A stretch of DNA of 28,088 nt, from the IMG/VR virus record IMGVR_UViG_3300044631_003061, positions 1 through 28,088 of that record; one strand, 5' to 3'. The stretch is from a virus. Within the stretch, counting starts at the first letter, position 1. The number at the start of each line of letters is the position of its first letter. The position numbers were made by a program, and so were the translations under genes. The notes beneath the pieces are model-generated. The model was not told where the DNA came from. It saw nothing but the letters and a program-made list of their open reading frames with translations, and ran no database searches. Positions 2,854-27,575 of the stretch are shown here, one piece after another.

Positions 2854-2932
2854 GTTTTTGTGTGACTTGAGCTGGACTTTAGCTCTGCTTACGGGAAACC
2901 GCACTACAATTGAAACAGTTTGAGTGCGCTCG

Positions 2933-8592: not shown

Positions 8593-9183
8593 TTATAACA
8601 GCTTTCCCCAGGGATCTGTTGGTTCTTGAGGAGTTTCATTCTGCACCGTGGGGATCTTCGCCTTAGCGGTGATCGGCATTTGCGTGAGGATGGTTTGCAT
8701 GGATACAAGTTGTTGCTTAAGCTTTACGTTTTCCTGCATGTAGACCTCTACTTGTTTCTGAGCCCATGCGCTCGCATTCGCACTCAGTTGATCCAGGATG
8801 TTTTCTTGGTGCGGGAACTTATAGAACGTTCCTTGATCGGTTGTAACTTTTTGACCTCCTTGCGATTCTGCCAGCTTTGTTAAGAAGTTATCGATGCGCT
8901 CTAGGTCGGCGTCTGCTTCAAATGCAAGCTCTTGCGGTAGCAGTATTCCTCGATTGTTTCGATAAAGCGCAGTGAAAGCACGAGCAACTCGAAGTTTTTC
9001 GTGTTCTTGTTCTGCTCGTTTCCTCGCAAGTTCGGCTGCCGCTGCCGTTCCTGCAAGCAGACCGCCCGAAGCAGCCACAGCGGTTGAGAGATTTTTCGGA
9101 TCTGTCCCTGCGACAGTCAGGCTCAGAAATCCACCGAACAATAACGCTATGCCGTTAAGCCGATTCGACTGGTTGTTGATCAT
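8593..9183 (-). CDS. membrane-anchored coiled-coil protein
   Basis: The frame is open to ATG 9291 (232 aa), which would overlap the primase-helicase by 137 bases. The internal ATG at 9183 (M-I-N-N-Q-S-N-R) leaves a 29-base overlap and is preferred, giving 196 aa. The shortened protein starts with a hydrophobic helix (G-I-A-L-L-F-G-G-F-L-S-L-T-V-A-G) and a small-residue second helix (A-A-S-G-G-L-L-A-G-T-A-A-A-A), followed by charged helices with coiled-coil character (Q-V-E-V-Y-M-Q-E-N-V-K-L-K-Q-Q-L). The tail is Pro/Thr-rich. No family is recognised. It is the last gene of its transcription unit and ends just before the hairpin at 8544. Confidence 0.55.
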   Translation of the reverse strand: MINNQSNRLNGIALLFGGFLSLTVAGTDPKNLSTAVAASGGLLAGTAAAAELARKRAEQEHEKLRVARAFTALYRNNRGILLPQELAFEADADLERIDNFLTKLAESQGGQKVTTDQGTFYKFPHQENILDQLSANASAWAQKQVEVYMQENVKLKQQLVSMQTILTQMPITAKAKIPTVQNETPQEPTDPWGKLL

Positions 9184-11947
9184 GAGCTTCGAAAGCTGGT
9201 TTCCAATAAGAAGTGTCTGGGTTTGATGCCCACTCCACAGGGGAGGGGAGACGATTTGATCCGGCCGCTGCGCGGTCGGTGGATGGGTCATACGGCTTCA
9301 ATCGTAATCCGCTGAAGACGGCTTTGCCATTAACGAATTTGGGAGCAACACCTTCTACACGAAGGACATTTCGAATCGTCTCTTTGAGACGATCTACGAA
9401 ACGGGGTTTGGCGGAATGCTTGTAGCCGTTTGACTTGCAGAAGTTTACGTAACTTGCATAGAGCTCCAGGTAAGCGTTTTTAACGAACATCCCTTTTTCC
9501 GCTTCGTCTGTACTGGGTCGGAAAGCGCCAGCACCGATCAACGCGTGGCTATTAGGCGCGTACATAGTGCACTCCGCCAACCATGCCACGTAAGGGTTGT
9601 TGAAGATCAGAGCTTCAAGGTTAGTGGCGTTGAGCGACGGCACATGTTTAACGGGATTGGCAAGCACATCACGCATCTCATCGAAAGGCATATCGAGTGC
9701 CCATGAGACCACTCCGCTGAGTTCTGGAACCAGGTCACCTTCCAAGCGGTCTTGGTAGATGTTGAGAAGATCACGCCGTTGTGAAGCAGGCACAACTTTG
9801 TCCATGATGATCGTCAGTCGTCGGCGCTCCAAACCGCTGCTGATATCCGAAGAGCTGATGTGCTCGTTCGATGCAATGCAAACGAGAACCTCCGGTTTGA
9901 AGTTGATAACTTCTTTTCCGTATTTGCGTTCTGCTCTCAGTGTGTCTGACGCAGATGTAATTTTCTTGAGAACGTCTAGACGTTTGTTGAAGTTTGCCTC
10001 GTCTGTCAACAGCAGAAGCCTTTTGCCTATGAGGTTGTAGCACTCGAATTTATTCGTCTCGATAGTTTCGAGGTTGCTCGTGTGCGTACCGGAAAAGCCT
10101 GCCAGTGCAATTAACAGCTGCTGCATTGTCGACTTGCCAGTTCCACCAGGACCAACCAAGTGCAGGAACCTTTCTCCCGTTGTGTAGCCTGTCAGCAGTG
10201 CACGGGCGAACGCGCGAATGATGACTTTTTTATCTGCGCCAATGCAGGAGTCGAGCCACGCGTGGAAGTTTGGACACTGCGCAGTCTTCTCGTAAGGGAA
10301 CGCGAGTTTGTTTCGCAAATACAGGTCTTTATGATTTCCCTCTTCGAATGCCAGGGTCTCGCCGTCGAGCGTGCCGTTTGCAAATGGGATTTTGCCGCGG
10401 CTTTTGCTCCAGATCGAAACGCGCCCTCCGCTTACTGATTTGAGCAGCTTGCCTTTCAGCAGCTGAAACACAGAGCTGACCGTGGCAGCGCTGTACCGGG
10501 GCATGACGCCCGCTGCTACAAACGTATCCAGTGTTTTTATGATCCTTCGTTTGATATGCTGTTCGTCTTGAATGTACCAGATTCCTTCATCGTTATCGTA
10601 TGTAAAGAATTCATCTAAAGACGAATCAAAGAGGAACTCCGCTCCGTAATTATTTACGATGATGTCGGCGACATCATTTTCAGAAAACTGTCGGTTTCCC
10701 TGCTGCAGGGACACCAACTGTGCCGGTGTGGATGGGGTAGACGCCATTTTTTTCGGTTTTGATGTTGATGTTGATGTTTGCGTCTCGCTGATTTTTTCGT
10801 CAGCTTGAGCGACCAGATCCTCGAAACTCAGAATTGAGTTTGTTGGCTTGGGTTTAAGTGCAGCGATTTCTGCTCGGGTCTCGGCGGGGCACTGGGCTTC
10901 GAACTGTTCTCGGCTCGCGTTTCGAACACGCTTCCAGGCGCTCAGCTCTCCATCCTCCGCTGCCATGACGACAGCCGGTTGCAGGGAGGCTGGATCTGTG
11001 ATGCTGCTCAGGATCCGTCCAAATTTTCCATCGAGGTCTGGGGGGTATTCGTAGATATTCTCGAACACCTGGTGTGCGGTTGTCAAGGGGGGTTCCTGAG
11101 TCGCCAACCCACGCGCCTTTAACCAGTTGCACCAGCCGATGATTTCCTTAAGAGCAACGGTCAGAGCGAATGACCGATCCTCCACAGGTTCTCCTTCGAG
11201 CATGGCTCGGACGGTCCCGCTAACAAGCTGTTCCAGATCCACCCCCGTGGGATCCACGCTTGTCTGGAGTTGTAGGCTCGCATCTCCGCCCGCATCGTTC
11301 TGCTTTGGCTGAGTTAAATAAACAGCATATGCTTCCTTGATCTTGCTTTCAGGTATGAATTTATCTGAGACAACAATCAAGCTATCGGTTCCAGTTCCTC
11401 CGTAAAACAGATTGACGGCTTGTGTTGCTCGGCGATCCGATCCTGGAATCTGGTTAGCTACATACCGGGTAAACCACTGGTAGAAATCGGGATCGATAAT
11501 CGCTGTTTCCAGCGCGAAGATCAATCGAAAGCGCGGCCAAGCTTCGGTATGAGACGGCGATAAGTACGCCAGACTCAGGTATTTCTCACAGATATCTAAG
11601 GCTAGTGCGTCGCTTACGTTTAGTTCTTGTTTTTGTATTTTGTTGCCGTTCTCATCTTTGCCGTCTGCTTGATTATCAATATCGATGATTATTAAACCGG
11701 CTCGGATTGCACCTGTACTTTTTTCTCTTCTCCTTCCTTCTAATAAATGCCAAGCGCACAAACCAGCTTGCTGCGTGGTTACAGCATCTGCCAGAAACTC
11801 AATTGTTTCCTCTTGAGGAAGCCAATTGTTATTAAAGGCGGCAAAGTTTCCCCCCGGAGCAATCTTGCCAGTCGCAGGATTGACGTGTTCTGAGACGGCG
11901 TGATTGATCGAGAAGAGGAATTTCATAGCTGTCAGGCGTCCGGTCAT
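9155..11947 (-). CDS. primase-helicase with D5-type superfamily 3 helicase
   Basis: A 930-aa replication protein. The N-terminal part (about 1-210) has L-I-I-I-D89-I-D91-N and P-R-F-R-L-I-F-A-L (138-146), the hhhDhD and Arg/His-type strands expected of an archaeo-eukaryotic-type primase. The C-terminal part is a D5-type SF3 helicase: Walker A G-P-G-G-T-G-K-S-T at 599-607, Walker B L-L-L-L-T-D649-E650 and sensor A-S-N-E at 692-695, followed by the E-R-R-R arginine cluster at 707-710. The middle (390-410) is a Ser/Thr-rich linker. The protein would unwind and prime the phage DNA. M8 is an alternative start. It follows the PD-(D/E)XK gene in the same direction, 53 bases downstream. Confidence 0.88.
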   Translation of the reverse strand: MTGRLTAMKFLFSINHAVSEHVNPATGKIAPGGNFAAFNNNWLPQEETIEFLADAVTTQQAGLCAWHLLEGRRREKSTGAIRAGLIIIDIDNQADGKDENGNKIQKQELNVSDALALDICEKYLSLAYLSPSHTEAWPRFRLIFALETAIIDPDFYQWFTRYVANQIPGSDRRATQAVNLFYGGTGTDSLIVVSDKFIPESKIKEAYAVYLTQPKQNDAGGDASLQLQTSVDPTGVDLEQLVSGTVRAMLEGEPVEDRSFALTVALKEIIGWCNWLKARGLATQEPPLTTAHQVFENIYEYPPDLDGKFGRILSSITDPASLQPAVVMAAEDGELSAWKRVRNASREQFEAQCPAETRAEIAALKPKPTNSILSFEDLVAQADEKISETQTSTSTSKPKKMASTPSTPAQLVSLQQGNRQFSENDVADIIVNNYGAEFLFDSSLDEFFTYDNDEGIWYIQDEQHIKRRIIKTLDTFVAAGVMPRYSAATVSSVFQLLKGKLLKSVSGGRVSIWSKSRGKIPFANGTLDGETLAFEEGNHKDLYLRNKLAFPYEKTAQCPNFHAWLDSCIGADKKVIIRAFARALLTGYTTGERFLHLVGPGGTGKSTMQQLLIALAGFSGTHTSNLETIETNKFECYNLIGKRLLLLTDEANFNKRLDVLKKITSASDTLRAERKYGKEVINFKPEVLVCIASNEHISSSDISSGLERRRLTIIMDKVVPASQRRDLLNIYQDRLEGDLVPELSGVVSWALDMPFDEMRDVLANPVKHVPSLNATNLEALIFNNPYVAWLAECTMYAPNSHALIGAGAFRPSTDEAEKGMFVKNAYLELYASYVNFCKSNGYKHSAKPRFVDRLKETIRNVLRVEGVAPKFVNGKAVFSGLRLKPYDPSTDRAAAGSNRLPSPVEWASNPDTSYWKPAFEAHDQQPVESA

Positions 11948-12000: not shown

Positions 12001-12777
12001 CTAGTCTTTACAGTTCTCGTAGAACTGCCGCAAAACTTGTAACCATTGTTCCATGTGTTTTTCTAATTGAGCTCGACTGAAGGTGAATACTTGAACTGGG
12101 TATTCCGGTAGGGGTGTCGATACGATTATTTGGGTTTTGTCTACACGTAAGTCCAGACAAGTTTCCGCCGCTAACGAATACGCAGCGAGCTGAAGTTGAG
12201 TCTTTTTCAGTTTGAAAACCCCGCTGATCAACGCTTTGCGCACGTGGTCGGGGATGTCAGCTTTGGCTTTCGGGAAGTTTGCGGAGTACGGACCGACGCT
12301 TGTTTTGAAATCTCCTAGAACAATTTCTCCGTTGCCGTCTCTGTAAATAATGTCGCAGCAACCGGCGTAACCGTGCCCTGTGTTTTCATTGTAATAGTGT
12401 ATTCTTCCTACACCATCTTCTCCTACGTACTTAGACCATTGCGGTTGATTGTACGGTTTTTCACTCCATAGTATTGTTCCGTTATCTAGCAGCTCGTCTA
12501 GTTTTTCCGGCATACCCGTCCAGTAGGGCATGAGATCGTCTGCCGGATGTACAGCGATTCCTCGTACGTAGTTCTCTACCGCGTTGTGGATCCAACTTCC
12601 TCTGGCCGCAGCTTTATCCGCCACGCCGGGGTTCATTAGATTCCAATGCGCTAGTTTCTTACGCGTTTCTTCCGTCTGCGTGGCAGATAGTACACTAGTT
12701 ACTGAAGGAAGCGGTTTGGGAACACCAGCGCAATTGTAATGCCTTAAACCGTTGAGAGTTACACGTGTTTGAGACAC
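12001..12777 (-). CDS. PD-(D/E)XK exonuclease, Cas4/RecB-like
   Basis: A 258-aa nuclease starting at GTG 12777. The catalytic core is visible: His64 in W-I-H-N-A-V-E, Asp142 in C-C-D-I-I-Y, Asp156-Phe-Lys158 in L-G-D-F-K-T, and Q196-L-A-A-Y200 as the usual motif after the core. This order H...D...DxK...QxxxY is that of RecB/Cas4-like and lambda-type exonucleases, which process DNA ends in recombination and replication. A 6-bp inverted repeat (12773-12778 with 12783-12788, G-A-C-A-C-A arms) spans the start codon and could limit translation. Neighbouring genes are the primase-helicase and an acidic-tailed small protein. Polarity and partners cannot be told. Confidence 0.85.
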   Translation of the reverse strand: MSQTRVTLNGLRHYNCAGVPKPLPSVTSVLSATQTEETRKKLAHWNLMNPGVADKAAARGSWIHNAVENYVRGIAVHPADDLMPYWTGMPEKLDELLDNGTILWSEKPYNQPQWSKYVGEDGVGRIHYYNENTGHGYAGCCDIIYRDGNGEIVLGDFKTSVGPYSANFPKAKADIPDHVRKALISGVFKLKKTQLQLAAYSLAAETCLDLRVDKTQIIVSTPLPEYPVQVFTFSRAQLEKHMEQWLQVLRQFYENCKD

Positions 12778-14108: not shown

Positions 14109-14924
14109 TTAAAAATCCAGACCGAGCGTTTTTGCTTGCTCTGCTGTTAACTCGATTGCTTTTTTATTGTTTGCGTTTGGCGGTTCGCTTTCAGCACTCG
14201 GAGTGTCTTTAGCAGATTTGAGTGCTTTGGCCTGCGGAGCGCTGGTGAATGCCCCGGCCGCGGAACCCTGATGTTCGGCTGCGAATCGAGCTTTAATTTC
14301 GTTGTGATCCGAACCCAAAGGAAGCTCAACTAAATCCGAGCCGGGGATGTGCGACTTCAATGCTGAGGCACACAGATTACCTCCTTTGTCCGTCAGCCAT
14401 GTGTTGATGTCTTCGATGAGTTTGATCTCATCTTCATTGGCTGGAGGACGATCCGCAAATTCGAGAGCGTTGAAGTTAATCTTTGCTCCGTCTGCTCCGG
14501 TCATCGGATCGCGCTCATTGAAGCTACGAGTGACAAACTTTGTTGTCGTGATGACGGAGGCGCAGTTAATTCGATTGTTATACAGAGTTTGGAAATAGCT
14601 GATGAAATTCTTTTGCGAGGATTTACCTGAGATCATCGAGGTTGTGACGCAGCGTGGCGGCAGTAGTCGATGGTTCGGTGTTACTCCGATGTACGCGATA
14701 CGCAGGAATTCTTCCTGGTTCCGCATACCTAAGTTGCCGAAATATGGTGTAAAGCCGACGAGTACGAACTCAATCGGGATGCCGTTGTCGTTTCGGTCGA
14801 CAATAGCGGAGTCAGGATCGACGTCGGATTTCCAACGACGTGCCTGAAGATCAATCCTCAGAGTATGCGGGGGGACGTTACAGAGAATTTCGTCCTGAGA
14901 AAATTGGCCAGCGATGAATACCAT
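14109..14924 (-). CDS. hypothetical protein in replication block
   Basis: A 271-aa protein. The first 150 residues look globular (hydrophobic blocks P-I-E-F-V-L-V-G-F-T-P-Y-F-G and E-E-F-L-R-I-A-Y-I-G-V); residues about 215-255 are Ala/Ser/Pro/Lys-rich and probably disordered, and the last segment I-E-L-T-A-E-Q-A-K-T-L-G-L-D-F is a short helix. No family is recognised. It sits 13 bases downstream of the SSB-like gene and immediately before a terminator, so it shares that transcript and may act on DNA with it. The start ATG 14924 is preceded by A-A-C-T-A-A-C rather than a Shine-Dalgarno sequence. Confidence 0.65.
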   Translation of the reverse strand: MVFIAGQFSQDEILCNVPPHTLRIDLQARRWKSDVDPDSAIVDRNDNGIPIEFVLVGFTPYFGNLGMRNQEEFLRIAYIGVTPNHRLLPPRCVTTSMISGKSSQKNFISYFQTLYNNRINCASVITTTKFVTRSFNERDPMTGADGAKINFNALEFADRPPANEDEIKLIEDINTWLTDKGGNLCASALKSHIPGSDLVELPLGSDHNEIKARFAAEHQGSAAGAFTSAPQAKALKSAKDTPSAESEPPNANNKKAIELTAEQAKTLGLDF

Positions 14925-14937
14925 GGTTAGTTACTAA

Positions 14938-15582
14938 TCAGAGTGAGAAATCGATAGAACCGATAGCAGCAGCGGAAACTTTACCTTTTTCAGGGTCCAC
15001 GGCTTTTTTAGGAGTTGCTTTGGATGACTTAGGAAGGTACAAAATCTTGTCTACTGTGTAGTTCAGATAATTCTTTTCGTCTTTTTCGCTAGTTGAAACC
15101 TTGCCTACGGCGATAGTAGGTGTTCCTGGTGCCAGTTCTGCAAGCTGTTTGGAAAGTTCTCCCCACGCAGTCAATTTGAACCACGCGGTCTCGCTTTCTT
15201 CTGTTTGCCAGGCCAGGGATCTGTTAGTTACGGTTGTGTCGGATAGTTCTACTTCTTCAGCTTTCGGGCCTAGGCCGCCCGTGGCCATAAACACGTTGAT
15301 GGCTAACAGATCCTCGAAGTTATCTTGAGTTACAACCAGCATGGGCTGCATCTTCAGAACCCCATCGATAGTTGGGATTGTGGGACCGATGGCCAGCACA
15401 GTTTGTCCAACTTCTAAATTCTTTAGAAGTTTTCCAACGTAATGATTAGCTTTTTGTAGGAGTTGAAACTTAGTTTCGACTCGCTTTTCGTTGGATGGAA
15501 GACTTTCTGCCAAAACGTTGACAATGCCTTCGTCTTCTTCAGCGGTTGCTGTTACTTTGAGACCCATTAAGAACAGGTTCAT
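14938..15582 (-). CDS. single-stranded DNA-binding-like protein
   Basis: A 214-aa protein. Its second half has the look of an OB-fold of the SSB class: N-R-S-L-A-W near residue 121, E-T-A-W-F-K-L-T-A-W-G-E-L-S-K-Q-L-A-E-L (about 131-150) and G-K-V-S-T-S then Y-L-N-Y-T-V-D-K-I-L-Y-L. The phrase W-F-K-L/V-x-A-W-G-x-x-A/S is the central SSB strand-turn. The C-terminus is Lys/Ala-rich and ends S-I-D-F-S-L instead of the acidic DDDIPF-type tip. It would coat single-stranded DNA at the fork. The start could be ATG 15582 or ATG 15567. It overlaps the upstream HNH gene by 44 bases. Confidence 0.6.
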   Translation of the reverse strand: MNLFLMGLKVTATAEEDEGIVNVLAESLPSNEKRVETKFQLLQKANHYVGKLLKNLEVGQTVLAIGPTIPTIDGVLKMQPMLVVTQDNFEDLLAINVFMATGGLGPKAEEVELSDTTVTNRSLAWQTEESETAWFKLTAWGELSKQLAELAPGTPTIAVGKVSTSEKDEKNYLNYTVDKILYLPKSSKATPKKAVDPEKGKVSAAAIGSIDFSL

Positions 15583-17377: not shown

Positions 17378-19276
17378 TTACTTGGCAGACCAGTCATTGC
17401 CTATGCCGGGTTCCGCCACTAATTGTGTCTTTTTGAAGACTGTGTCTCCGGCGTGCACCATGATCTCAGCCAATTTTTCTTTCCATGTTTCTTCTAGTCC
17501 CTCTTTTACCTCTAGCACGCATTCATCGTGCACAACAGCGATTAACCGTACTTCATCGTTTAGATATTCGTTTAAATTTCCTAGTGCAATTTTCAAAATA
17601 TCTGCACCCGTTCCCTGGATCAGGGTGTTCGCCGCGATCGTCATACGGGCGTCGTCGTATGAGAGCAGTCGGCGTCTGCCGAGAGCTGTCCTCGTGTAGC
17701 ACCAACCATCCTGCACAAGCGCTCCCCTTTGACGGTGCCATTCCCGCAACCGTGGGTACGCATTGTGGAATTTACTGTGCAGCACTTTGCTCTCTGATAA
17801 GGTCATATGCACCCCGAAAGATGCTGCAGCATACGTTTTGAATTTTCGATAACCAATTCCATAAATAAATCCGAAGTTAGCCCCTTTCGCCATTTGTCTC
17901 TGCGATTTTGTAACTTCCGTAATATCACAATCGTTCACTAAGCTTGCTGTGAGTGTGTGTAGGTCTATATCTTTATTGTACGCTTCTTGCATTTGCGGGA
18001 TATCAGCCAGCTCAGCGAGCAACCGAAGTTCCATTTGTGAGTAATCTGCGATAACTAATTTGTATCCTTCGCTTGCTTCGAAGCATTCTCGGAAAGATTT
18101 AGACCGGGGAACTTGCTGCAGATTCACTCCGAAATTAGTTTTTGGCTTACTTTTAGCTGTCTTGGTTGCCCCGGAACACGTAAACCGACCGCTGTTGGCT
18201 CCGACTTGGTTGTAGAAACTATGAATCCTGTGAGTCATGGGGTTGATGTTTGAGATCAACTTATCTGCATGCTCCAGACTCGTTTCCATTTTTACCCGTT
18301 CTCTATATAACTGAAGTGTCGGGTCGTCACTATCGAATTCAGCTAGCGCTATTTGATTCAGAGTAACTTTTTTAGTATCAGGGTTTACTGGTAATGCTAT
18401 CCCGCATAAATCAAACGCTGCAGCAACCTGCGCTGTGGATCCCGGATTAAACTCCTTATCCGCCTTTTTACCGACTGCGACGTTGCCCTCGATGTCTCTT
18501 GGAAGTTTTTTGTCTTCCGGCAAGCGGGCATCGAGTGCCTCTACAAACTCTTCTGTTTTTGCGGCGAGTTGACTCTCAATGTCTTTTTTGAGTTTCTGAA
18601 GTTTTTCGATGTTCACCTTGAAGCCGTGGTAAGTCATCAACGCCACAGCGCGTACGCATCTGGATTCGATGCTGTATACATCCACCAACGCTTCCTCTTT
18701 CAATTCGGCTAGTTGTTCCGAAGCAATTGCAGGGAGGATATCGACATCTCTAGCTGCGTACTCGACTTGTTCGAGTGTCAGGCTCGGAGCTCCCCAATCC
18801 GTTAAACGTTGCTCCTTGTCTACTTCGAGTTCTAATCTCCGCATAGCAACTGCTTTGAGTGAGCACGATATATCTGCGAAATATGTTTTGTTTGATTTTG
18901 GCGAAACCTTTTGTTCTTGGAACCCCGCCCTTAATACGCGCTCGGCGATGTACGTATCAAAGATTTTATTTTTGAAATCGATTCCCAGGCTGTACAGGAA
19001 CTGTAGGTCGAAGCCTAAGTTGTGGCCCACCAGCATTTCCTGCTTTTCGATTAATTCTTTTAGTTCAGCTATGACATTCGTTTCGAATAAATCGAAAACA
19101 TAAATGATGCGATCTTCTACTTGAGGGGAAGCGTCACACAACTGAAGCAAGCGTGGTTTAGCGATGGTTGCCTGCAGCCCTGTTGTTTCCATGTCCAAGC
19201 AGAGTTTGTTTAGCCTGCTCAGATCCGCAACCGCATCCAGTGCCTCTTTGTCGGTTTTAAGAAATTTGATTTTCAT
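17378..19276 (-). CDS. family A DNA polymerase with 3'-5' exonuclease
   Basis: A 632-aa replicative polymerase of the T7/Pol I family. The exonuclease part has D28-M-E30-T-T-G, H85-N-L-G-F-D90 and Y173-A-A-R-D177, the DEDDy metal ligands. The polymerase part has motif A V-I-A-D411-Y-S-Q-M-E-L-R, motif B (O-helix) R460-Q-M-A-K464-x-x-N-F468-G-F-I-Y-G and motif C V-V-H583-D584-E585. There is no 5'-3' exonuclease domain. Residue 468 corresponds to E. coli position 762 and is Phe; in viral surveys this position (Phe, Tyr or Leu) tracks replication style, with Phe and Tyr tied mainly to lytic phages. It starts just after the terminator of the preceding operon. Confidence 0.95.
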   Translation of the reverse strand: MKIKFLKTDKEALDAVADLSRLNKLCLDMETTGLQATIAKPRLLQLCDASPQVEDRIIYVFDLFETNVIAELKELIEKQEMLVGHNLGFDLQFLYSLGIDFKNKIFDTYIAERVLRAGFQEQKVSPKSNKTYFADISCSLKAVAMRRLELEVDKEQRLTDWGAPSLTLEQVEYAARDVDILPAIASEQLAELKEEALVDVYSIESRCVRAVALMTYHGFKVNIEKLQKLKKDIESQLAAKTEEFVEALDARLPEDKKLPRDIEGNVAVGKKADKEFNPGSTAQVAAAFDLCGIALPVNPDTKKVTLNQIALAEFDSDDPTLQLYRERVKMETSLEHADKLISNINPMTHRIHSFYNQVGANSGRFTCSGATKTAKSKPKTNFGVNLQQVPRSKSFRECFEASEGYKLVIADYSQMELRLLAELADIPQMQEAYNKDIDLHTLTASLVNDCDITEVTKSQRQMAKGANFGFIYGIGYRKFKTYAAASFGVHMTLSESKVLHSKFHNAYPRLREWHRQRGALVQDGWCYTRTALGRRRLLSYDDARMTIAANTLIQGTGADILKIALGNLNEYLNDEVRLIAVVHDECVLEVKEGLEETWKEKLAEIMVHAGDTVFKKTQLVAEPGIGNDWSAK

Positions 19277-19280
19277 GAGG

Positions 19281-19312
19281 CAAAAAAGAAAAGCCCCAGG
19301 GGGCTGGGGCTT
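19281..19312 (-). terminator. rho-independent terminator ending the RavA/ViaA-like operon
   Basis: A perfect 9-bp GC-rich stem (A-A-G-C-C-C-C-A-G / C-T-G-G-G-G-C-T-T, 19291-19312) with a G4 loop is followed, read on the minus strand, by T-T-C-T-T-T-T-T-T-G. It lies between the 278-aa gene and the polymerase ATG, so the polymerase needs its own promoter or read-through. Confidence 0.88.
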
Positions 19313-19348
19313 GATGATAGGTCTTTTTTCTTGGAGAAAGAGGGATTG

Positions 19349-20185
19349 TTACTTAGACCGCATGAAGATCCCATCCACGTAATCGTCGACGTCTCCCCAA
19401 GCTTTCACCATCTCCTTCCCTTTGTCCGTTGCCCGAACTTGATAGAACATACGCTGCATGTGCTCTGCCTTAGGCGCGACGTTCTCCCGCAAGCTCCCTA
19501 CGGAGATCCCTTTCTCCTGTTCGATAAGACCGTGATTCCGGCACCACAGCATCCCCTCACGAAGACCGATATAAACCGGACTCACGTGGAACGAATTCTT
19601 TCGTTCGGCGCCAGGCTTTGTGTCCGCCGGAACCCAGACATCGCTCCGCTCGTTACGCCAGAAACCTCGGAAAGCTACACAGGTTTCGGAAGCTTCGGTC
19701 TCGCGCCACAGAGAGTTTACGTAGCTGGTGGCAATCTCCTTAAGCGTCGTCCATTCGTCGTCCGCGCTCTTAGAGAGCAGCAAAGCTGCGCCTGCCGACC
19801 AGTATCCGCTATAGCTGTTCAAGACCTCGATCAAGTGGTCCGGCGTATCGGGTGAAGAGATCTTTAGATGAGCTCCGTTCCGAACCGGAGCGGCAATCTT
19901 GCCGATGGCTTTGTCCGGCTTTTGTACGGATATTTTCCATGCCAGAGAAGCCAGCTCGGGGTTCCCCTTTTCGATGGAGAGCTCGAACAGCTTCTTGCTG
20001 TCGATTCGGCGAAGGTCGAATACCTTGCTCAGCTCAATGGCGATCGGACCTTCTCCGTACTCCCCCGTGGCAGCCAGCAGCGCTACTGCTTCAGCTTGTT
20101 TGATGGGTGTGCTCTCAAGCAGAAATTGAAAAGACATGTTCATGTGACAAGAACAGAAGAAAGATAGGGTGTGCTTGCCCAGCAT
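19349..20185 (-). CDS. hypothetical protein at the end of the RavA/ViaA-like operon
   Basis: The frame is open to ATG 20185 (278 aa). ATG 20143 or 20137 (M-N-M-S-F-Q-F-L-L) may be the true start, because the first 14 residues look unlike the rest. The protein is soluble, alpha-helical at the N-terminus (A-E-A-V-A-L-L-A-A-T-G-E-Y) and Trp-rich in the centre (G-Y-W-S-A-G, L-W-R-E, G-F-W-R-N). The C-terminal third (L-R-E-G-M-L-W-C-R-N-H-G-L-I, later M-V-K-A-W-G-D-V) could be a winged-helix-like fold. No family is recognised. It is the last gene before the terminator. Confidence 0.55.
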   Translation of the reverse strand: MLGKHTLSFFCSCHMNMSFQFLLESTPIKQAEAVALLAATGEYGEGPIAIELSKVFDLRRIDSKKLFELSIEKGNPELASLAWKISVQKPDKAIGKIAAPVRNGAHLKISSPDTPDHLIEVLNSYSGYWSAGAALLLSKSADDEWTTLKEIATSYVNSLWRETEASETCVAFRGFWRNERSDVWVPADTKPGAERKNSFHVSPVYIGLREGMLWCRNHGLIEQEKGISVGSLRENVAPKAEHMQRMFYQVRATDKGKEMVKAWGDVDDYVDGIFMRSK

Positions 20186-20212
20186 ACAATGTTTTTTCGC
20201 TTTTCTTCCGAT

Positions 20213-20617
20213 TTAAGCGGTGACCGCATCGCTGGCTTGACCGACCCAAACACAGATGTCATCCGTTATCAGCTCAGCCAAGTCCATGGCTTCTGTGAAT
20301 CCGAGAATTATATTTTTATCGAAACAATTAGTTATCTCTACGCCATACTCTCTTCGTACATACATAGCGAGCGGAAAAGTTATGTCCAGTGTATTACCTT
20401 CATCTGTTTGCAAGTATATGCAGAACAATGCTTTCTCTTCGATAAACTCTAATAACGCTCCTCTAAACCATATGGATTCATGTTGTGAACTGGGCTTGAA
20501 TACTCTTATTTTTTCGTAAACTCTGTCCCTCACCCAAGTGCAGACGTCAGTTTCGCTTGTCGGCCGTCCGTTGTATTTCTCACAAAGATTCTTTATCGCT
20601 TTTGCTGCATCAGTCAT
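20213..20617 (-). CDS. hypothetical protein
   Basis: A longer frame reaches 20836, but that extension reads across the 76-aa gene. ATG 20617 (M-T-D-A-A-K-A-I-K-N-L) gives 134 aa with an 8-base overlap with the end of that gene and is the sensible start. The product is mixed alpha/beta with one Trp-containing segment near the start (V-C-T-W-V-R-D-R-V-Y-E-K-I-R) and a C-terminal acidic helix (F-T-E-A-M-D-L-A-E-L-I-T-D-D). No family is recognised. Confidence 0.55.
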   Translation of the reverse strand: MTDAAKAIKNLCEKYNGRPTSETDVCTWVRDRVYEKIRVFKPSSQHESIWFRGALLEFIEEKALFCIYLQTDEGNTLDITFPLAMYVRREYGVEITNCFDKNIILGFTEAMDLAELITDDICVWVGQASDAVTA

Positions 20618-20840
20618 ACAGCTTTTCCGGAACCTTAGACCATTTAAGTTTTCCGTTGATCCTGCCTGTGCATACCCACAGTTGGTTAGTTGAGCTGTCG
20701 AACCATATGTGCCCCAGACCGGGTTTAGTTGGAGGGCTGTCGACGGTAGAGACGTCTCCGTTTGTCGCGGAGCCGTCCTGCCTTCTCTCTTGATACTCTT
20801 CTTTGAGAGCCCTGATCTGATCTGCGGGTGTTTCACTCAT
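20610..20840 (-). CDS. hypothetical protein with short Trp motifs
   Basis: A 76-aa protein with a helical acidic N-terminus (D-Q-I-R-A-L-K-E-E-Y-Q-E-R), then a beta-like end: G-H-I-W-F-D-S-S-T-N-Q-L-W-V-C-T and L-K-W-S-K-V. The phrase G-x-I-W-x-D-x-x-T-x-x-L-W-V is typical of small beta-hairpin units found in phage virion proteins, so it may be a beta-hairpin adaptor, but the context is the RavA/ViaA-like operon. It starts 9 bases after the VWA gene's stop. Confidence 0.55.
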   Translation of the reverse strand: MSETPADQIRALKEEYQERRQDGSATNGDVSTVDSPPTKPGLGHIWFDSSTNQLWVCTGRINGKLKWSKVPEKLYD

Positions 20841-20849
20841 GTCGTCAAC

Positions 20850-22400
20850 CTACCTCAGACATTTTTGAATAACGTCTACAGAGCTTTCAGTGTTGTAAAC
20901 GTTAACCGAATACATATCATCGCTAAATTTTTTGCAGACCGCAGGCACTTCTGTATTGATACACACTGTAGACCATTGCGTTCCTGTGCTTTGTTTAAAC
21001 AGTTTTAGTCGACGCTCAAGGTTCTCATTGATGTCGGAGTGCCCGTCCGTAATCAATAGAACGTCGGCTCGGGCATCTTTACAGCCGTGATCTACAGCGT
21101 GGCTGATTACCGCATTGAAACTGGTACCTCCGCCGAGTGTCCACGTCGCAACGAAATCTAGTAATGCCATTGTGTTAGAAGCTTTGGGTTTTAGTTCGAT
21201 TGATTGATCAATGCGAGTGTCGAACAAGTGGATGAATACTTTTCTATTTTCCTTCAAAGCTTCCTCAGCGACGACGAATGCTATTGCCTTGCTCCATAGT
21301 TCCGGTTCCCCTCCCATTGATCCTGAAACATCTATGTACATGACCACTGGACCTTTTCCGAGATTGTTTTGATTTGCTGTATAGTCTTTAGTAAGAATAG
21401 TTTTCTGAGAGAACTTCAAAGCAAATAATGCTCGGCCCTGCGGCGTAGCCGCCAGTGCCAACTCGGCAGGGAATGCTTTGGTTACATCGTTGCCAAACGT
21501 AGCGCCTGTAATTGCTTCATAGTTTGCTGTCGCTTTCTTAGCCCTTTTCCTTTGAACCCAGATGCGACGAAGAGCCCCTAGCTTTATCGCTAGCTCTTTT
21601 AATCGCTTATTGTTTCTTAGCCGATCAGCTAGGTCACGCTTAGCTTTCAGATCGTTTGCGTTCTTTCCTGTTCCTACTTCCACCCCGTGGAGGCTTGAGA
21701 TCGCTTCGTTTGTCTCATCACTCTTCTCGATAGTTTGATCAACAATCGAATCCGTCTGCGGTTTGATTTGTTCCGCCGCTTGCTGTAGGGCGTTGTTGAT
21801 CGCTTGGTTTAAGGCTTTTCCCGCTTTGCGAGCTTCATCCGCTGCCTTCTCATCGCCTTTGGCTTTGGCGTCTTGATACGCCTGCCTCAGCTGCTCGAGC
21901 TTATCCCCTGCGGCGGTTAACAGTTGAACGTCGAACAACCCCTCCTCGATGGCGTCCTGCAGAACTTCCGACAGCTTGTTCAGAAGGTTGACTGCGTTGT
22001 TGCCTGCGTTGAATTGGTTGCCTACGCAGCGCCTGAGCAGCTCTGGCCACGCTGCGGTTTGACCGAGATCAGCCATGATGGCATACCAGATTCCGTTCTC
22101 CGGTTTGTACCCCGTGGGAATCGCCGAAGAATCTCCGTCGCATACCTTGCGGAAATATTCTTCGTAAGCTTCTTCTGATACCAGCCACTTGACGTTGTCA
22201 GCGTTATAAAGTCTGTCGAATAATTCCTTACCGAAACGAGATAGTTGTCCGATCTTGTAGTGATCTATTAAATACTTAACTACCGGACGCGTGTCCCTGA
22301 CAAAATCTTCCCATAGAAAATCAGCGAGAGGCGAGCATGCAAGCGTCAGAGGTTCATTGTTTGTGAGGCGGACAAATTCAGATTGAGTTTGCATGTTCAT
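20850..22400 (-). CDS. ViaA-like VWA-domain protein
   Basis: A 516-aa protein. The C-terminal third is a von Willebrand factor A domain with an intact metal site: D357-V-S359-G-S361, T426 in G-G-G-T-S-F and D452 in T-D-G-H-S-D. The segment just before it matches the bacterial ViaA family: L-A-I-K-L-G (270-275), G-N-D-V-T-K-A-F-P-A-E-L (303-314), a Phe-rich block and K-G-P-V-V-M-Y-I-D-V-S-G-S-M-G-G-E-P-E. Residues 140-270 are charged coiled coil. ViaA proteins pair with RavA-type MoxR ATPases as substrate adaptors. The partner ATPase is two genes upstream in the same operon. Target in the infected cell is unknown. Confidence 0.85.
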   Translation of the reverse strand: MNMQTQSEFVRLTNNEPLTLACSPLADFLWEDFVRDTRPVVKYLIDHYKIGQLSRFGKELFDRLYNADNVKWLVSEEAYEEYFRKVCDGDSSAIPTGYKPENGIWYAIMADLGQTAAWPELLRRCVGNQFNAGNNAVNLLNKLSEVLQDAIEEGLFDVQLLTAAGDKLEQLRQAYQDAKAKGDEKAADEARKAGKALNQAINNALQQAAEQIKPQTDSIVDQTIEKSDETNEAISSLHGVEVGTGKNANDLKAKRDLADRLRNNKRLKELAIKLGALRRIWVQRKRAKKATANYEAITGATFGNDVTKAFPAELALAATPQGRALFALKFSQKTILTKDYTANQNNLGKGPVVMYIDVSGSMGGEPELWSKAIAFVVAEEALKENRKVFIHLFDTRIDQSIELKPKASNTMALLDFVATWTLGGGTSFNAVISHAVDHGCKDARADVLLITDGHSDINENLERRLKLFKQSTGTQWSTVCINTEVPAVCKKFSDDMYSVNVYNTESSVDVIQKCLR

Positions 22401-22414
22401 GGGATCTAGTGTTG

Positions 22415-22588
22415 TTAATCTGATTTGAGATCAAGTTCAGAAACACGACCCAGGACTTTTGCTTGACAGCCTGGGTTTAACTCCATCGCGATGTACCACG
22501 CATTTGTCGCTCCCTTTGCGGGATATGTTTTTTCCTCGCAATCTCCATTGGAGTTTGTGATCTCGACTGCGTAGTACTGATGAGTCAT
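22415..22588 (-). CDS. 57-aa coupled protein between RavA-like and ViaA-like genes
   Basis: A small frame runs from ATG 22588-22586, which overlaps the stop of the AAA+ gene (ATGA), to TAA at 22415-22417, 14 bases before the VWA gene start. The product has the pattern Y-Y-A-V-E-I-T-N-S-N-G, E-E-K-T-Y-P-A-K-G-A-T-N-A-W-Y and A-M-E-L-N-P-G-C, suggesting a compact beta-beta-alpha fold. Position and overlap strongly favour real translation. It might be an adaptor of the ATPase/VWA pair; no family is recognised. Confidence 0.6.
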   Translation of the reverse strand: MTHQYYAVEITNSNGDCEEKTYPAKGATNAWYIAMELNPGCQAKVLGRVSELDLKSD

Positions 22589-23775
22589 TTACTTATGTCG
22601 CTGATCGCTCGAGCCAGCGTGTCGCAATGGGTTTGAAGGGTTTGTTGAAGCTTAACTCCCTTTGCCCGCGTCGTGGCAGACATCCGGAGTTTCGAACCAT
22701 CCAGGATCTCGGAGACTTTGTCGCGAACTGTCGCCATATCCTTGGAGTACTTTCGGAGTAAAACTACGAATTCATTCAGCTCCGATAGTCCCCTAGCCTT
22801 GTTATATCGGTGGCTGTACGTTGTGTACTCGGACATAATTCCCGCTGCAGCTCTCTTGGCGTCGGAGAACACCTTGTCCGCTGTGGGAATCTCCTGCTCT
22901 AGAACTTCGCGGATGACTTCCTGATCTTCAATAGTCTGATACACAATGTGTACAAGGCTACTGTGCATGTGCTCAGGGTAGAGTTCGTCATCTCCTTGCA
23001 CAAGCGCCCACGCTTTTAGAAATTTGAGTATCTGCACACGCCGACGATCGCTGATCGTTATCGCGCGGCTGCTCAACATTTCCCATACGGAGTTGAACTT
23101 GTCTAGGAATTCTTCGGAAACTTTTATCGCAGCTGCTTCTTTCTGTAGTGCCTCGAGTTCATCGAGAGTCAGATGCTCGCCTACTTCAGGACGCTGTTCG
23201 ATTCCCAATCCCCATTCATCCAGCCGCCGTTTGGACGTGGGTTTTCGGAGTAAGTCAACAGTCGGTCTGAATAGGAATCTGTCTGCGAACGCTTGAAGTG
23301 ATTCTTCCTCTGGCCAGCTGTTTGTCGCTGCGATGATTGCCTGGATGGGTGTCTCTAAGTTTTCCTTCCCGTTGTTGAACGTCCGCTCGTTAAGGAGAGT
23401 TAGGAGTGAATTCAGGATCGCGGAGGAACCGCGAAACAGCTCATCCAAAAAACCAATGTGCGCTGTGGGCAGATACCCTTCGACGTCTCTGGTGTACTCA
23501 TCGTTTAGGAGTTTAGTCACTGCAACAGGACCGAACACTTCTGAAGGATCAGTCGTTGGTGTGAGCAGGTATCCGAAGTAATTAGCGTCGGTAATACCTC
23601 CACAGATGTTTCGAACAAGATCTGATTTACCTGTTCCGGGGACACCTAGAAGGAATGCGTTCTGTTTGCTCAGCAGTGAAGCTAGAAGACCATCGATAAT
23701 TTGCTCACGCTCAAGGCTGCTCGCGTTGAGCGCTCCTCTAAATTTCTGAAGCTTGAGAAAAAGTTGATCGTTCAT
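22585..23775 (-). CDS. RavA-like MoxR AAA+ ATPase
   Basis: A 396-aa ATPase. The AAA+ module carries Walker A G44-V-P-G-T-G-K-S51, Walker B F-L-D111-E112-L-F, sensor-1 N152 in A-A-T-N, and D-R-F (165-167). The RavA-type surroundings are very clear: L-L-T-P-T-T-D-P-S-E-V-F-G-P (70-83), G-Y-L-P-T-A-H-I-G-F-L-D-E (100-112) and I-L-N-S-L-L-T-L-L-N-E-R-T-F-N-N-G (120-136), each with a close RavA counterpart. The last 150 residues are helical, as in family members. MoxR AAA+ proteins work as hexamers that remodel protein targets with a VWA partner, here the ViaA-like protein. Start ATG 23775 overlaps the previous stop (ATGA). Confidence 0.9.
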   Translation of the reverse strand: MNDQLFLKLQKFRGALNASSLEREQIIDGLLASLLSKQNAFLLGVPGTGKSDLVRNICGGITDANYFGYLLTPTTDPSEVFGPVAVTKLLNDEYTRDVEGYLPTAHIGFLDELFRGSSAILNSLLTLLNERTFNNGKENLETPIQAIIAATNSWPEEESLQAFADRFLFRPTVDLLRKPTSKRRLDEWGLGIEQRPEVGEHLTLDELEALQKEAAAIKVSEEFLDKFNSVWEMLSSRAITISDRRRVQILKFLKAWALVQGDDELYPEHMHSSLVHIVYQTIEDQEVIREVLEQEIPTADKVFSDAKRAAAGIMSEYTTYSHRYNKARGLSELNEFVVLLRKYSKDMATVRDKVSEILDGSKLRMSATTRAKGVKLQQTLQTHCDTLARAISDISK

Positions 23776-24011
23776 CGTTTGTTGAGGTAGTTAGTTTGAA
23801 TGAGTGAGCTGTAACCCTTTGGGTGAGGGAAATCTACGTAAACGCTTCCCACCCAGCAATCTTCTTTGATCTTCGTGTCCATAGCGGCTAACCGTTTGGC
23901 TGCCACTGTGAAATCCACAAAAGTAATAGCGGCGTTCGGATCCTCTGTGTATTTCTCTATGTCACAGAGATAACCTTCGTCGGATTCGATCACGTGGAGA
24001 AGTCGTTTCAT
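23772..24011 (-). CDS. hypothetical small protein in RavA/ViaA-like operon
   Basis: A 79-aa protein whose start shares one base with the preceding stop (24011) and whose stop overlaps the AAA+ start by 4 bases, so it is coupled on both sides. It has a mixed alpha/beta pattern (V-I-E-S-D-E-G-Y-L-C-D-I, V-D-F-T-V-A-A-K-R-L-A-A-M) and a basic C-terminus. No family is recognised. Confidence 0.55.
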   Translation of the reverse strand: MKRLLHVIESDEGYLCDIEKYTEDPNAAITFVDFTVAAKRLAAMDTKIKEDCWVGSVYVDFPHPKGYSSLIQTNYLNKR

Positions 24012-25234
24012 TAAAAGTCAGCTTCCTCCGGAGCGTCTTCGATAACTTCGTTGGCTACAGGAGTCGCTGTTGACAGTTCAGCCAACAGTTCGTCCAGTTT
24101 CTCACCTGCTGCTCCAATGAGTTCTTTCCTCTGGTTAATGAGTTTCTTCAGCTGTTTTGATCTTTGTGCATAGACATCTAGTTCTACATTTGCATCTTTT
24201 ACTAATAAGTTCAAACTGTTGATGTTTTCAGCGTTGTTAATCCTGTCGCAAAGTGTTTTGTACTGAGATGAAAGGGCAAGCGACTGCTTCAGTTTATCTA
24301 AGCCTTTGGATTCGTCCCGCGTGGAACAGATTGATTCCAGCTCTGCGCGAATCTCCTCCTGAACTCGATAAAAATCTTCGGTTCCCTTCTGCCGTACTGC
24401 TCTATCTTCTGCCTGCAGATTGTGTCCTGATTGGAGCAGTTCGTCAGCTAATTTTGTGAGGTTATCAAATCCTGGTACAGAGTCGCTGATCAGTTTCAGT
24501 TTCTCTGCGGTTAGTTGCCACGAGCCCCGCTTACGAGTGCCCCCTGTTTGCTGTTTGCCGATCTTTGTGACCCCGCGAACATCGAGGTCGTCAAGCAGCT
24601 CGGCACTTATCTGCAGTGCACGATCCGCTGCGCTGTTTCTTGCAGCTTCGAGCACCTGCTGAGTATTGATTTGGTTTTCGTAAGCCATTAGCGATTCCAA
24701 ATCGCCATCAATTGGTTTGTTTACTGTGACGAGAGAGACCGGCAGAGGCCCCAACACAGATACACGAATCGGTGCTTTGTATTCTTCACACGTTGGAAAC
24801 AGACGCAAATACGCTTCATGAGCCAACTTGAACTCATCGTTACTTCCGAAGAGCGGACGTAAGATGCCGTGTGCAGTTTCCGACCAGGCATCGAACTCGT
24901 CTTTCCACAGATCTTTGAGTTTGTCGTTAGCAGCATCCGCCGCTTTTCGAATCTCTTTAATCAGATCGTTAGCGCACTGAAAATAGTTAGAAGTGACAAA
25001 GTGAGAATCGCCGTAATGAATGCAATAGCTGTCATACAGTTCACGCTGCATGACACGAAGTGAATCCAATTCTCCTTTGAGAGAATTCGAGAGATTGGGG
25101 CGAAGGCTGACGGTGTTGTTCTTTTCAAGAGTTTCGATAACCGATGGCGGAAGTTTTAGGTCATCAAATTTGATTTGAACAGACTGCCTTACGTCTGCTG
25201 AGATTGAGCAAGCCAGGAGATAGTGGGTTGTCAT
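24011..25234 (-). CDS. helical coiled-coil protein of the RavA/ViaA-like operon
   Basis: A 407-aa, mostly alpha-helical, charged protein. Long heptad-like stretches run from about residue 180 to 395 (E-N-Q-I-N-T-Q-Q-V-L-E-A-A-R, Q-L-T-A-E-K-L-K-L, K-Q-L-K-K-L-I-N-Q-R-K-E-L). A central G-P-L-P-V-S-L-V-T-V block near residue 163 breaks the helices. It ends in an acidic tail (E-D-A-P-E-E-A-D-F). Helical DUF3150-type proteins occur beside MoxR/VWA pairs in some phages, and this could be one, but I cannot verify that. It is the first gene after the structured non-coding stretch and is coupled to the 79-aa gene. The start follows A-A-C-T-A-A-C. Confidence 0.6.
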   Translation of the reverse strand: MTTHYLLACSISADVRQSVQIKFDDLKLPPSVIETLEKNNTVSLRPNLSNSLKGELDSLRVMQRELYDSYCIHYGDSHFVTSNYFQCANDLIKEIRKAADAANDKLKDLWKDEFDAWSETAHGILRPLFGSNDEFKLAHEAYLRLFPTCEEYKAPIRVSVLGPLPVSLVTVNKPIDGDLESLMAYENQINTQQVLEAARNSAADRALQISAELLDDLDVRGVTKIGKQQTGGTRKRGSWQLTAEKLKLISDSVPGFDNLTKLADELLQSGHNLQAEDRAVRQKGTEDFYRVQEEIRAELESICSTRDESKGLDKLKQSLALSSQYKTLCDRINNAENINSLNLLVKDANVELDVYAQRSKQLKKLINQRKELIGAAGEKLDELLAELSTATPVANEVIEDAPEEADF

Positions 25235-25384
25235 TTGTGTTAGTTAAAGTTCAATTACTGAGTGAGGAAAGTGCAGAACCCCTCAGGAACAGATGCCGAG
25301 GGGCCCACGGGGAAGACCTTAGCGCAGGTTTCGAAGGGAAACCAGACAGTTCACAGAATCTTATGATTCTGTCAGTAGCGCACG
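25235..25384 (-). promoter_or_regulatory. structured non-coding leader with three hairpins
   Basis: This 150-base gap separates two minus-strand genes and has no credible frame. Read in transcription order it holds a 7-bp perfect hairpin (25374-25380 with 25383-25389, starting inside the previous stop), an 8-bp perfect hairpin (25353-25360 with 25365-25372) and a 6-8 bp GC-rich hairpin (25279-25284 with 25298-25303). None is followed by a T-run, so simple termination is unlikely. It could be an attenuator, a processing site or an RNA regulator ahead of the RavA/ViaA-like operon. I could not match it to a known riboswitch class. Confidence 0.55.
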
Positions 25385-25810
25385 CTACTTACGCAGTCTT
25401 GTGAATGCCAGGACGATCTTCTCAGTAGTCTCGTCGCACTCTCCGGTTATTACCATTTGCTTGGCTGTGTGCTTTAGCTGCATCTTGGCCAGTTTCAATT
25501 CAGTTTCAAGCTTTTCTACTTTCTCGGTCAGCTTCCGAAGTTTGTCGTGCGCCGTGGGAACTCGAGTGATGCGGATGACGATGTTTGTATTGTGCTGAGG
25601 GAACTTGAATTGACTCTCCTCTCCGGAGAATACCGATAGATCGAACCCCTGACGTTCTGCGAGTGTGATGTCTTTGAGCAGATTGAGTTTGGCTGCTTCG
25701 TATGGAACTCCGAATGCGCTATCCAACTGCTGCAGCGCAGTGTCGCATTCGTCATAAGCTTCGGCCGCCAAAGCACCCAGCTCTACCAGCTCCGTTGTTT
25801 TGATGTTCAT
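25385..25810 (-). CDS. hypothetical coiled-coil protein
   Basis: The frame is open to 25879, but that extension runs to within about 24 bases of the tRNA-like element; ATG 25810 (M-N-I-K-T-T-E-L-V-E-L-G) gives 141 aa and is preferred. The N-terminal half is helical (A-L-A-A-E-A-Y-D-E-C-D-T-A-L-Q-Q-L). A beta segment with N-I-V-I-R-I-T-R-V follows in the middle, and residues 90-125 form a Lys/Glu coiled coil (L-R-K-L-T-E-K-V-E-K-L-E-T-E-L-K-L-A-K). No family is recognised. It lies directly upstream of the structured leader. Confidence 0.55.
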   Translation of the reverse strand: MNIKTTELVELGALAAEAYDECDTALQQLDSAFGVPYEAAKLNLLKDITLAERQGFDLSVFSGEESQFKFPQHNTNIVIRITRVPTAHDKLRKLTEKVEKLETELKLAKMQLKHTAKQMVITGECDETTEKIVLAFTRLRK

Positions 25811-25902
25811 GAGAAGGTCTGATGTGATGTAGGCGCCACGTTTGGATCGGTCGGTGCCACCGAGTGCAATATAGCACATGTAAAGGTCTAGACCTCACTG
25901 AG

Positions 25903-27153: not shown

Positions 27154-27575
27154 TAGAGATTTCCGGGGCCAACTGAGGGCGGAGGCGGAGGCGGAACATA
27201 CGCAGGAGCGTCAAAGTTTCCCGGCCCTGTCGAAACTCTCGGCGGCGTGGGAGGAGCCACAGGGGGAGAGGGTTCCGAGACGGGTCGTTGTTCGGAATCA
27301 GCTGGAAGCTCTGCAGGCGGAGAGTCTTCCTTTGTGTCCGTCGGTTCTTTTTTAGTGTCGTCCTTAGGCTGAGTCTCTTGAGACTTGCCCATCTTCGCCT
27401 CCCAGTCGGCTTTCGCTTTCTCTTCTGGGGAGGGTTCCAGCTTCCCCGGAGGATCTGGCGTTCGCCCTGGCATTAAAGCACTTACCGCAGAGCTAACTAA
27501 GGTAACTACCACCGAGCCGACAACAAATGCAGCAAAGCCAGCAACAATGATGCCCAGTTTCTTTGTCGTATTCAT
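27153..27575 (-). CDS. proline-rich membrane-anchored protein
   Basis: A 140-aa protein with a hydrophobic N-terminal helix (residues 8-32, G-I-I-V-A-G-F-A-A-F-V-V-G-S-V-V-V), then an acidic/basic, Pro-rich tail with P-P-P-P-P-P near the end and two copies of G-P-G-N. It shares one base with the L,D-transpeptidase start and overlaps the SH3 gene's stop by 4 bases. The layout fits a cell-envelope tether with an extended periplasmic arm. No family is recognised. Confidence 0.6.
   Translation of the reverse strand: MNTTKKLGIIVAGFAAFVVGSVVVTLVSSAVSALMPGRTPDPPGKLEPSPEEKAKADWEAKMGKSQETQPKDDTKKEPTDTKEDSPPAELPADSEQRPVSEPSPPVAPPTPPRVSTGPGNFDAPAYVPPPPPPSVGPGNL

Follow-up and report, generated by a model that had tools for sequence, protein, structure and literature searches.

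MoxR-family AAA+ ATPases that work with VWA proteins form widespread machines with few known clients, and those encoded by viruses have so far been assigned to virion assembly. Metal insertion by NorQD is driven by a VWA domain that is seated in the AAA+ ring, reaches into the pore with a finger and twists (PMC13036017), while the targets of RavA-ViaA are lipids and respiratory complexes (PMC9489729). Viral MoxR-VWA pairs have already been published for jumbo phages (PMC7824862) and for ATV and SMV1 (PMC4124505), and a MoxR ATPase has been reported in cyanophage S-CREM1 (PMC9964418). Here we analyse such a pair, together with a third partner of 407 amino acids (p407), in positions 1 to 28,088 of the IMG/VR virus record IMGVR_UViG_3300044631_003061. 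This 28,088-bp stretch (the window) is a fragment of a phage lineage with genomes of about 86 kb.

We give about even chances to the reading that the three proteins form a MoxR-VWA machine that remodels the phage replication/recombination complex via a dedicated DUF3150-like partner. The anatomy of this machine is well supported and its target is one that we infer.

Results

The three genes lie on the minus strand of the window, as follows.

24011..25234, minus strand: p407, 407-aa protein, the constant third component beside the ATPase
22585..23775, minus strand: MoxR-family AAA+ ATPase, 396 aa, RavA-like core, without LARA
20850..22400, minus strand: VWA protein, 516 aa, helical N-terminal part and C-terminal VWA domain with an intact metal ion-dependent adhesion site (MIDAS)

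Relatives were collected in three IMG/VR scans, span 46–86% identity and, with the exception of Synechococcus phage S-EIV1, are all uncultured contigs. The p407-ATPase-VWA trio occurs in this order in 55 of 56 contigs, and p407 adjoins the ATPase gene in 55 of the 56 that cover the site. In the deepest members (L082–L084), the locus is reduced to p407, the ATPase and the VWA protein, whose genes are spaced by 2 and -4 nt. Pairwise protein distances, computed over 20 dereplicated contigs, correlate at 0.89–0.95 within the trio (p407-ATPase 0.92, ATPase-VWA 0.95) and at 0.63–0.77 with the family A DNA polymerase encoded nearby (polA). The distances of a 278-aa neighbour also correlate strongly with those of the VWA protein (0.88), so close linkage accounts for part of the correlation within the trio. 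A first-pass annotation of this DNA had described the catalytic and metal-site residues as intact, and the alignments bear this out: Walker A G44, P46, G47, T48, G49, K50 and S51, Walker B D111-E112, N152, R166 and R244 are invariant in 34 ATPase family members, as are the MIDAS residues D357-S359-S361, T426 and D452 in 33 VWA members.

Once rotated, two long relatives (86.3 and 86.6 kb) align collinearly; they carry TerL, a portal-like gene and the major capsid protein (MCP) gene on one strand, with the primase, exonuclease, p214, p271, polA and trio genes on the opposite strand. In the window, the replication genes of this second block are the following.

17378..19276, minus strand: family A DNA polymerase (polA), directly downstream of a terminator-like hairpin; DNA_pol_A 1e-63
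14938..15582, minus strand: p214, similar to single-stranded-DNA-binding protein (SSB), with a conserved end [ILV]DFSL
14109..14924, minus strand: p271, 271 aa, very conserved replication-block protein ending in [IL]DF
12001..12777, minus strand: exonuclease; phrog_298 3e-26
9155..11947, minus strand: primase-helicase; phrog_1156 1e-44, D5_N

The ATPase, polA, p214 and p271 co-occur wherever contigs of the lineage cover the region, and apparent gaps are contig ends. G010, a long contig lacking the trio and polA, was considered as an exception and rejected, as its exonuclease gene lies at base 709 and the region falls beyond the contig. p214 matches SSB family PF00436 below its cut-off in the same region of two divergent members (E 2e-4 and 1e-3; 21.6 and 19.1 bits, cut-off 26) and has weak matches to SSBs in the PDB; it is an apparent divergent SSB with the unusual conserved end [ILV]DFSL in place of the usual acidic ...PF tip. 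Searches with p271 in Pfam, PHROGs and the phage and plasmid collections found nothing, and the protein may be an unrecognised replication protein.

The virion genes of the lineage match those of S-EIV1 (TerL 52%, portal-like 46%, MCP 68% identity), and because TerL and MCP resemble those of a Synechococcus phage, the host of the lineage is likely a cyanobacterium. S-EIV1 has TerL, the portal-like gene, MCP, several tail genes, the exonuclease (39%) and the primase (28%) in common with the lineage. In the comparison with its genome we found no ATPase, VWA protein, p407, p214 or p271, and its polA is very divergent (22%). Its annotated SSB ends in the usual ...TDEPF. With this canonical tip and its very different polA, S-EIV1 (L188:29657-30466) suggests that the replication set has been exchanged within a single virion lineage.

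These comparisons bear on the role so far assigned to viral pairs, in which the trio would act as a chaperone in the maturation of head or tail proteins. In ATV, p618 is part of the virion and interacts with the VWA protein p892 (PMC4124505), and a role in assembly has been proposed for the jumbo-phage pairs (PMC7824862). However, S-EIV1 shares the virion genes without the trio, the SSB-like protein or p271, which speaks against virion assembly; moreover, the trio is part of the replication block, on the strand opposite to the virion block and distant from it, and no virion genes accompany the cyanobacterial plasmid trios described below in the plasmid stretches covered. We therefore disfavour the assembly role that had been raised for these genes, and regard it as unlikely. 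Gene order in the lineage and the gene content of S-EIV1 show that the trio belongs to the replication block and not the virion block, and that it is dispensable for this virion type.

p407 had been described in the first-pass annotation as a coiled-coil protein. Its standing as a constant extra partner holds in 55 of 56 contigs, but "coiled coil" is too simple, since the predicted structure (pLDDT 74, pTM 0.43) has strands and several helical segments. This model has no fold match in the PDB. In the BFVD, Foldseek places a DUF3150 protein at the top (E 6.3e-6, probability 1.00, TM 0.39 on the query and 0.51 on the target); unnamed phage proteins of comparable length come next, after which the matches fall off clearly. 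By sequence, DUF3150 (PF11348) has no match in 32 p407 members or in the record, and hhalign gives the p407-DUF3150 comparison a probability of about 1% or less. As sequence methods do not detect it, the link is a lead, not membership. Searches of Pfam, NCBIfam and folds revealed no beta-propeller, VMAP, iSTAND or FtsH component with effector domains in p407. DUF6744 was ruled out as a relative by hhalign, and CL131 gp148 and Moorella CDS0119 were rejected as homologues, being LPD29 and DUF6744 proteins, respectively.

The C-terminal end of p407 is Asp-Phe in all 41 distinct tails, even as the preceding 15–20 residues vary in length and sequence. p271 ends in [IL]DF in six of six distinct tails and p214 in [ILV]DFSL in nine of nine; no other block protein checked ends in Phe. 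The Asp-Phe ends of p407 and p271 resemble in form the C-terminal tip of SSBs. This suggests a common docking partner, while the analogies with SSB tips and with MIDAS ligands are by form only.

Outside the phages, the best plasmid matches of the ATPase lie on Acaryochloris pREC1/pREC4 and Chroococcidiopsis pCHRO.01/pA, where each time an unannotated protein of 442–469 aa is followed by a MoxR ATPase and a VWA protein. A first scan of genome contigs with the p407 profile gave nothing; the ATPase-profile scan of bacterial and archaeal genomes yielded two further trios, both in Nostoc. The upstream plasmid and Nostoc protein is a remote homologue of p407 (hhalign 99.1%, E 1.8e-18, 352 columns; column-shuffled controls 0.2% or less) and ends in Gly-Phe after an acidic residue. 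The cyanobacterial origin of these relatives also fits a cyanobacterial host for the phage lineage. In the literature found, the cyanobacterial trio has no description as a system. Taken together, these loci show the trio to be a conserved, co-evolving unit of the cyanophage lineage and of cyanobacterial plasmids, as judged by sequence comparison. A second, shorter p407-like protein (L143:13735-14589, E 1e-7) is encoded about 3 kb downstream of the trio in a Nostoc genome. Two plasmid copies lie in possible defence neighbourhoods: on Acaryochloris pREC1 the trio is immediately followed by a NACHT gene (L085:8706-11111), and pMB04 has a CHAT-TPR gene (L095:7896-10517) near a trio copy that lacks the ATPase.

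Could the trio then be a counter-defence module, or serve in competition between elements? The best Pfam family of the ATPase, bpMoxR, is named after MoxR-vWA ternary conflict systems (PMC7159879), the trio is found on conjugative plasmids, including the copy next to the NACHT gene and the interrupted one near the CHAT gene, and the slot between the ATPase and VWA genes carries differing small open reading frames (ORFs) in different phages. On the other hand, we found no effector domain and no C-terminal variation in the VWA protein, the PADLOC library gives no match above noise, and near-universal retention in the phage lineage looks like a core function. We consider a conflict function improbable.

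The ATPase and VWA protein had been taken for a RavA-ViaA-like pair. In Pfam, the ATPase matches bpMoxR (PF20030; 7e-56, 189 bits, gathering cut-off 27), AAA_5 (8e-21) and, above cut-off, AAA_lid_8; related phage families are present in PHROGs (19600 for the ATPase; 24053, of unknown function). The RavA-type surroundings reported earlier are real: the GYLP and NER-F-NG stretches align with RavA, hhalign matches the ATPase to RavA 9–277 (E 9e-31, 35% identity), and the only relatives with solved structures found by sequence are RavA chains. However, the RavA model NF010054 scores 138.9 bits (cut-off 681) and covers only 7–276 of 498 residues. There is no alignment past RavA residue 277, which leaves LARA and the interrupted triple-helical domain unmatched (ATPase 396 aa, RavA 498 aa). 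In a tree made by a quick method and with long branches, the phage clade (support 100) joins the ATPases of the cyanobacterial trios (92), and the RavA row and most cellular relatives fall elsewhere.

The VWA protein gives a parallel picture. VWA_3, VWA_CoxE and VWA_2 are above their cut-offs, and the predicted structure shows the VWA fold. Its DVTKAFPAEL aligns with DDILRLLPTEL of ViaA, in agreement with the ViaA-type surroundings noted before, and profile comparison matches it to ViaA 175–471. The ViaA model NF008230 scores 59.1 bits (cut-off 500) and covers only 180–457 of 487 residues. The N-terminal domain of ViaA (NTV) is unmatched: residues 1–230 against ViaA 1–300 give a probability of 0.2% by profile comparison, though both are helical. 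The RavA/ViaA-type, phage-borne and co-directional core of the original description thus stands, but membership of the two families does not, by cut-offs, LARA, N-terminal domain or tree. Because scores are far under the family cut-offs and matches are limited to the cores, we conclude that the pair is RavA/ViaA-like in core and not a RavA-ViaA system.

Host take-over, in which a RavA-ViaA-like activity would act on membranes, respiration or photosynthesis, draws on RavA being the nearest solved structure and on the cellular system acting on lipids and respiratory complexes (PMC9489729). We detected no counterpart of LARA, which is tied to lipid and LdcI binding (PMC9489729), or of the ViaA N-terminal domain, and judge this function very unlikely. 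Equally hard to credit is metal insertion into an enzyme in the manner of CobNST, NorQD or CbbQO. MoxR-VWA pairs of this type exist and NorQD inserts metal by twisting its VWA protein (PMC13036017), but the window proteins match no CobT, CobS or CbbQ/NorQ family and no candidate metalloenzyme is conserved beside the trio.

The remaining genes around the trio are listed below.

25385..25879, minus strand: 164-aa conserved upstream neighbour, kept in 53/57 loci
23772..24011, minus strand: p79, 79-aa protein, frequent and dispensable accessory gene, 47/56 loci
22415..22588, minus strand: 57-aa ORF, an orphan in the variable slot between the ATPase and VWA genes
20610..20840, minus strand: 76-aa gene (p76), downstream of the VWA gene, 34/57 loci, poorly conserved
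20213..20620, minus strand: gene of about 135 aa, with homology beginning near residue 70 of a longer GTG ORF
19349..20185, minus strand: 278-aa gene, the last before the terminator-like hairpin, 51/57 loci, fast-evolving
19291..19312, minus strand: terminator-like hairpin and T-run, between the 278-aa gene and polA

The five minus-strand ORFs predicted for the operon (those for p407, p79, the ATPase, the 57-aa protein and the VWA protein) are all present where they had been placed. The 407-aa and 79-aa genes overlap by 1 nt, the 79-aa and ATPase genes by 4 nt, as do the ATPase and 57-aa genes, and 14 nt separate the 57-aa and VWA genes. Across the lineage the order is kept as 164-aa gene, p407, (p79), ATPase, VWA, (p76), (gene of about 135 aa), 278-aa gene and polA, with those in brackets optional. 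Since homology begins near residue 70 of the GTG ORF, the true start of the gene of about 135 aa is probably near 20620. The proposed operon end is matched by the hairpin at 19312-19291, which is strong (nine pairs, six of them G-C, then TTCTTTTTTG); terminator-like matches across the region are not above shuffles (13 vs 12.7). The 407-aa gene as operon start is unsupported, because the conserved same-strand gene at 25385-25879 sits 150 bp upstream; no sigma-70-like promoter was found between the two.

The 57-aa gene, suggested as an adaptor, has no homologue among 57 loci; the ATPase and VWA genes abut in 35 of 56, and the other loci have unrelated small ORFs in the slot. For this gene, relatives that keep the pair without it are the very outcome that the first-pass annotation had named as refuting its proposal. 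The 79-aa gene fared better, being conserved in 47 of 56 loci, but it is missing from the deepest branches L081–L084 as well as from L045, L052, L053 and L072, and has no family match in Pfam, PHROGs or curated-model searches. Judged by these distributions, the 57-aa gene is outside the machine and the 79-aa gene is optional.

Other features of the lineage and window were recorded. The major capsid protein (L182:1707-2819 and its IMG/VR relatives) matches at least 592 IMG/VR stretches, which makes the lineage very abundant. In nine long relatives, Pfam Terminase_6N and phrog_2 did not match the terminase, which was recovered with phrog_38. The window encodes tandem paralogous 244-aa proteins (148-882 and 1230-1964, plus strand), the first weakly matching a phage cement protein, and a phage lysozyme domain fused to a C39-like peptidase domain (5010-6245, plus strand). 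S-adenosylmethionine decarboxylase and ThyX genes lie at 2924-3292 and 7503-8225 (plus strand), the former overlapping an opposite-strand exostosin-type glycosyltransferase gene. Upstream of the operon are genes for YkuD L,D-transpeptidase-like (26404-27153, minus strand) and SH3-domain (27572-27844, minus strand) proteins.

Discussion

The conserved residues required suggest that the MoxR ATPase would form a hexamer and act as a nucleoside triphosphate (NTP)-driven motor. By analogy with NorQD, the VWA protein would dock on the ATPase ring and pass on its motion, and p407 would be the client or client-adaptor. The target would be the phage replication/recombination complex (polA, SSB-like p214, p271), which the machine would load, activate or strip. 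The Asp-Phe end of p407, common to p271 and like the internal DF of the p214 tail, is proposed as the peptide for docking or handling. In favour of this reading are the constancy and correlated distances of the trio, its recurrence in cyanobacteria together with the ATPase tree, its position beside the polA, SSB-like, exonuclease and primase genes, its co-occurrence with polA, p214 and p271, the gene content of S-EIV1, the Asp-Phe tails, the clustering of MoxR, DUF3150 and VWA genes with ssb, bet and exo on the IncC plasmid pAR060302, and the DUF3150 protein as best viral fold match of p407.

Several observations weigh against this proposal. Contact of the trio with replication proteins is inferred, and early expression alone may explain the location in the replication block. 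In S-EIV1 polA also differs, so the absence of the trio there amounts to one evolutionary event. One contig of 45.8 kb (L008 in G032) has the ATPase-VWA pair with no p407 in the 4.7 kb upstream or elsewhere on the contig. The likeness of p407 to DUF3150 comes from one moderate-confidence model, and profile comparison is blind to it. The plasmid collection searched holds no p271 homologue, so the plasmid trio must work without p271. Finally, on the IncC resistance plasmid pAR060302, where genes for a MoxR-type ATPase, ssb, bet, an exonuclease, a DUF3150 protein (PF11348 4e-91) and a VWA protein are clustered, the ATPase is CbbQ-type and the VWA protein CobT-like, a different MoxR branch from the phage trio.

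A broader version is possible, though we hold it to be doubtful: that DUF3150-type, MoxR and VWA proteins constitute a general NTP-driven machine, as yet without a name, found in phages and conjugative plasmids, which would remodel single-stranded DNA (ssDNA) replication/recombination complexes and be recruited via a C-terminal aromatic tip. In this lineage that tip would be the Asp-Phe in which p407 and p271 both end, similar in form to the C-terminal tip of SSBs. If true, this would be the first MoxR-VWA system with the replisome as client. Should p407 be a DUF3150 protein, the same logic would extend to the uncharacterised MoxR/DUF3150/VWA genes beside ssb-bet-exo on pAR060302, of which we found no mention in the literature searched. 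Two phages with homologous virion modules separate assembly from the trio, a constant third partner is named and the Asp-Phe end offers a concrete peptide.

Among the nearest known systems, the trios of cyanobacterial plasmids and Nostoc have the same three genes in the same order, all three proteins homologous; they are divergent, however (ATPase 35–39% identical), and in the plasmid stretches covered the polA-SSB-p271 set of the phages is absent. The IncC cluster likewise combines a MoxR-type ATPase and a VWA protein with ssDNA-handling genes and a DUF3150 third protein (p407 by fold only), but in another gene order and without sequence-level p407-DUF3150 homology. MoxR-VWA pairs with DUF6744 (Firmicutes, a Brevibacillus plasmid, Moorella phage MTATph1 and a Pseudanabaena plasmid) also have a third gene upstream of the pair and occur on mobile elements, yet DUF6744 is unrelated to p407 by profile comparison. 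With enterobacterial RavA-ViaA, the phage pair has in common the AAA+ core (35%, E 9e-31) and, from ViaA, the half made up of linker and VWA domain (E 5.5e-14); it has no LARA or ViaA N-terminal match, however, has p407 as an obligate partner and forms a separate tree branch. ATV p618/p892, SMV1 and the group 2.2 jumbo phages resemble the trio in that a virus encodes both a MoxR ATPase and its VWA partner; they differ in being assigned to virion assembly, whereas the trio described here lies in a replication block with a DUF3150-like partner, and a sister phage of its lineage makes a homologous virion set without it.

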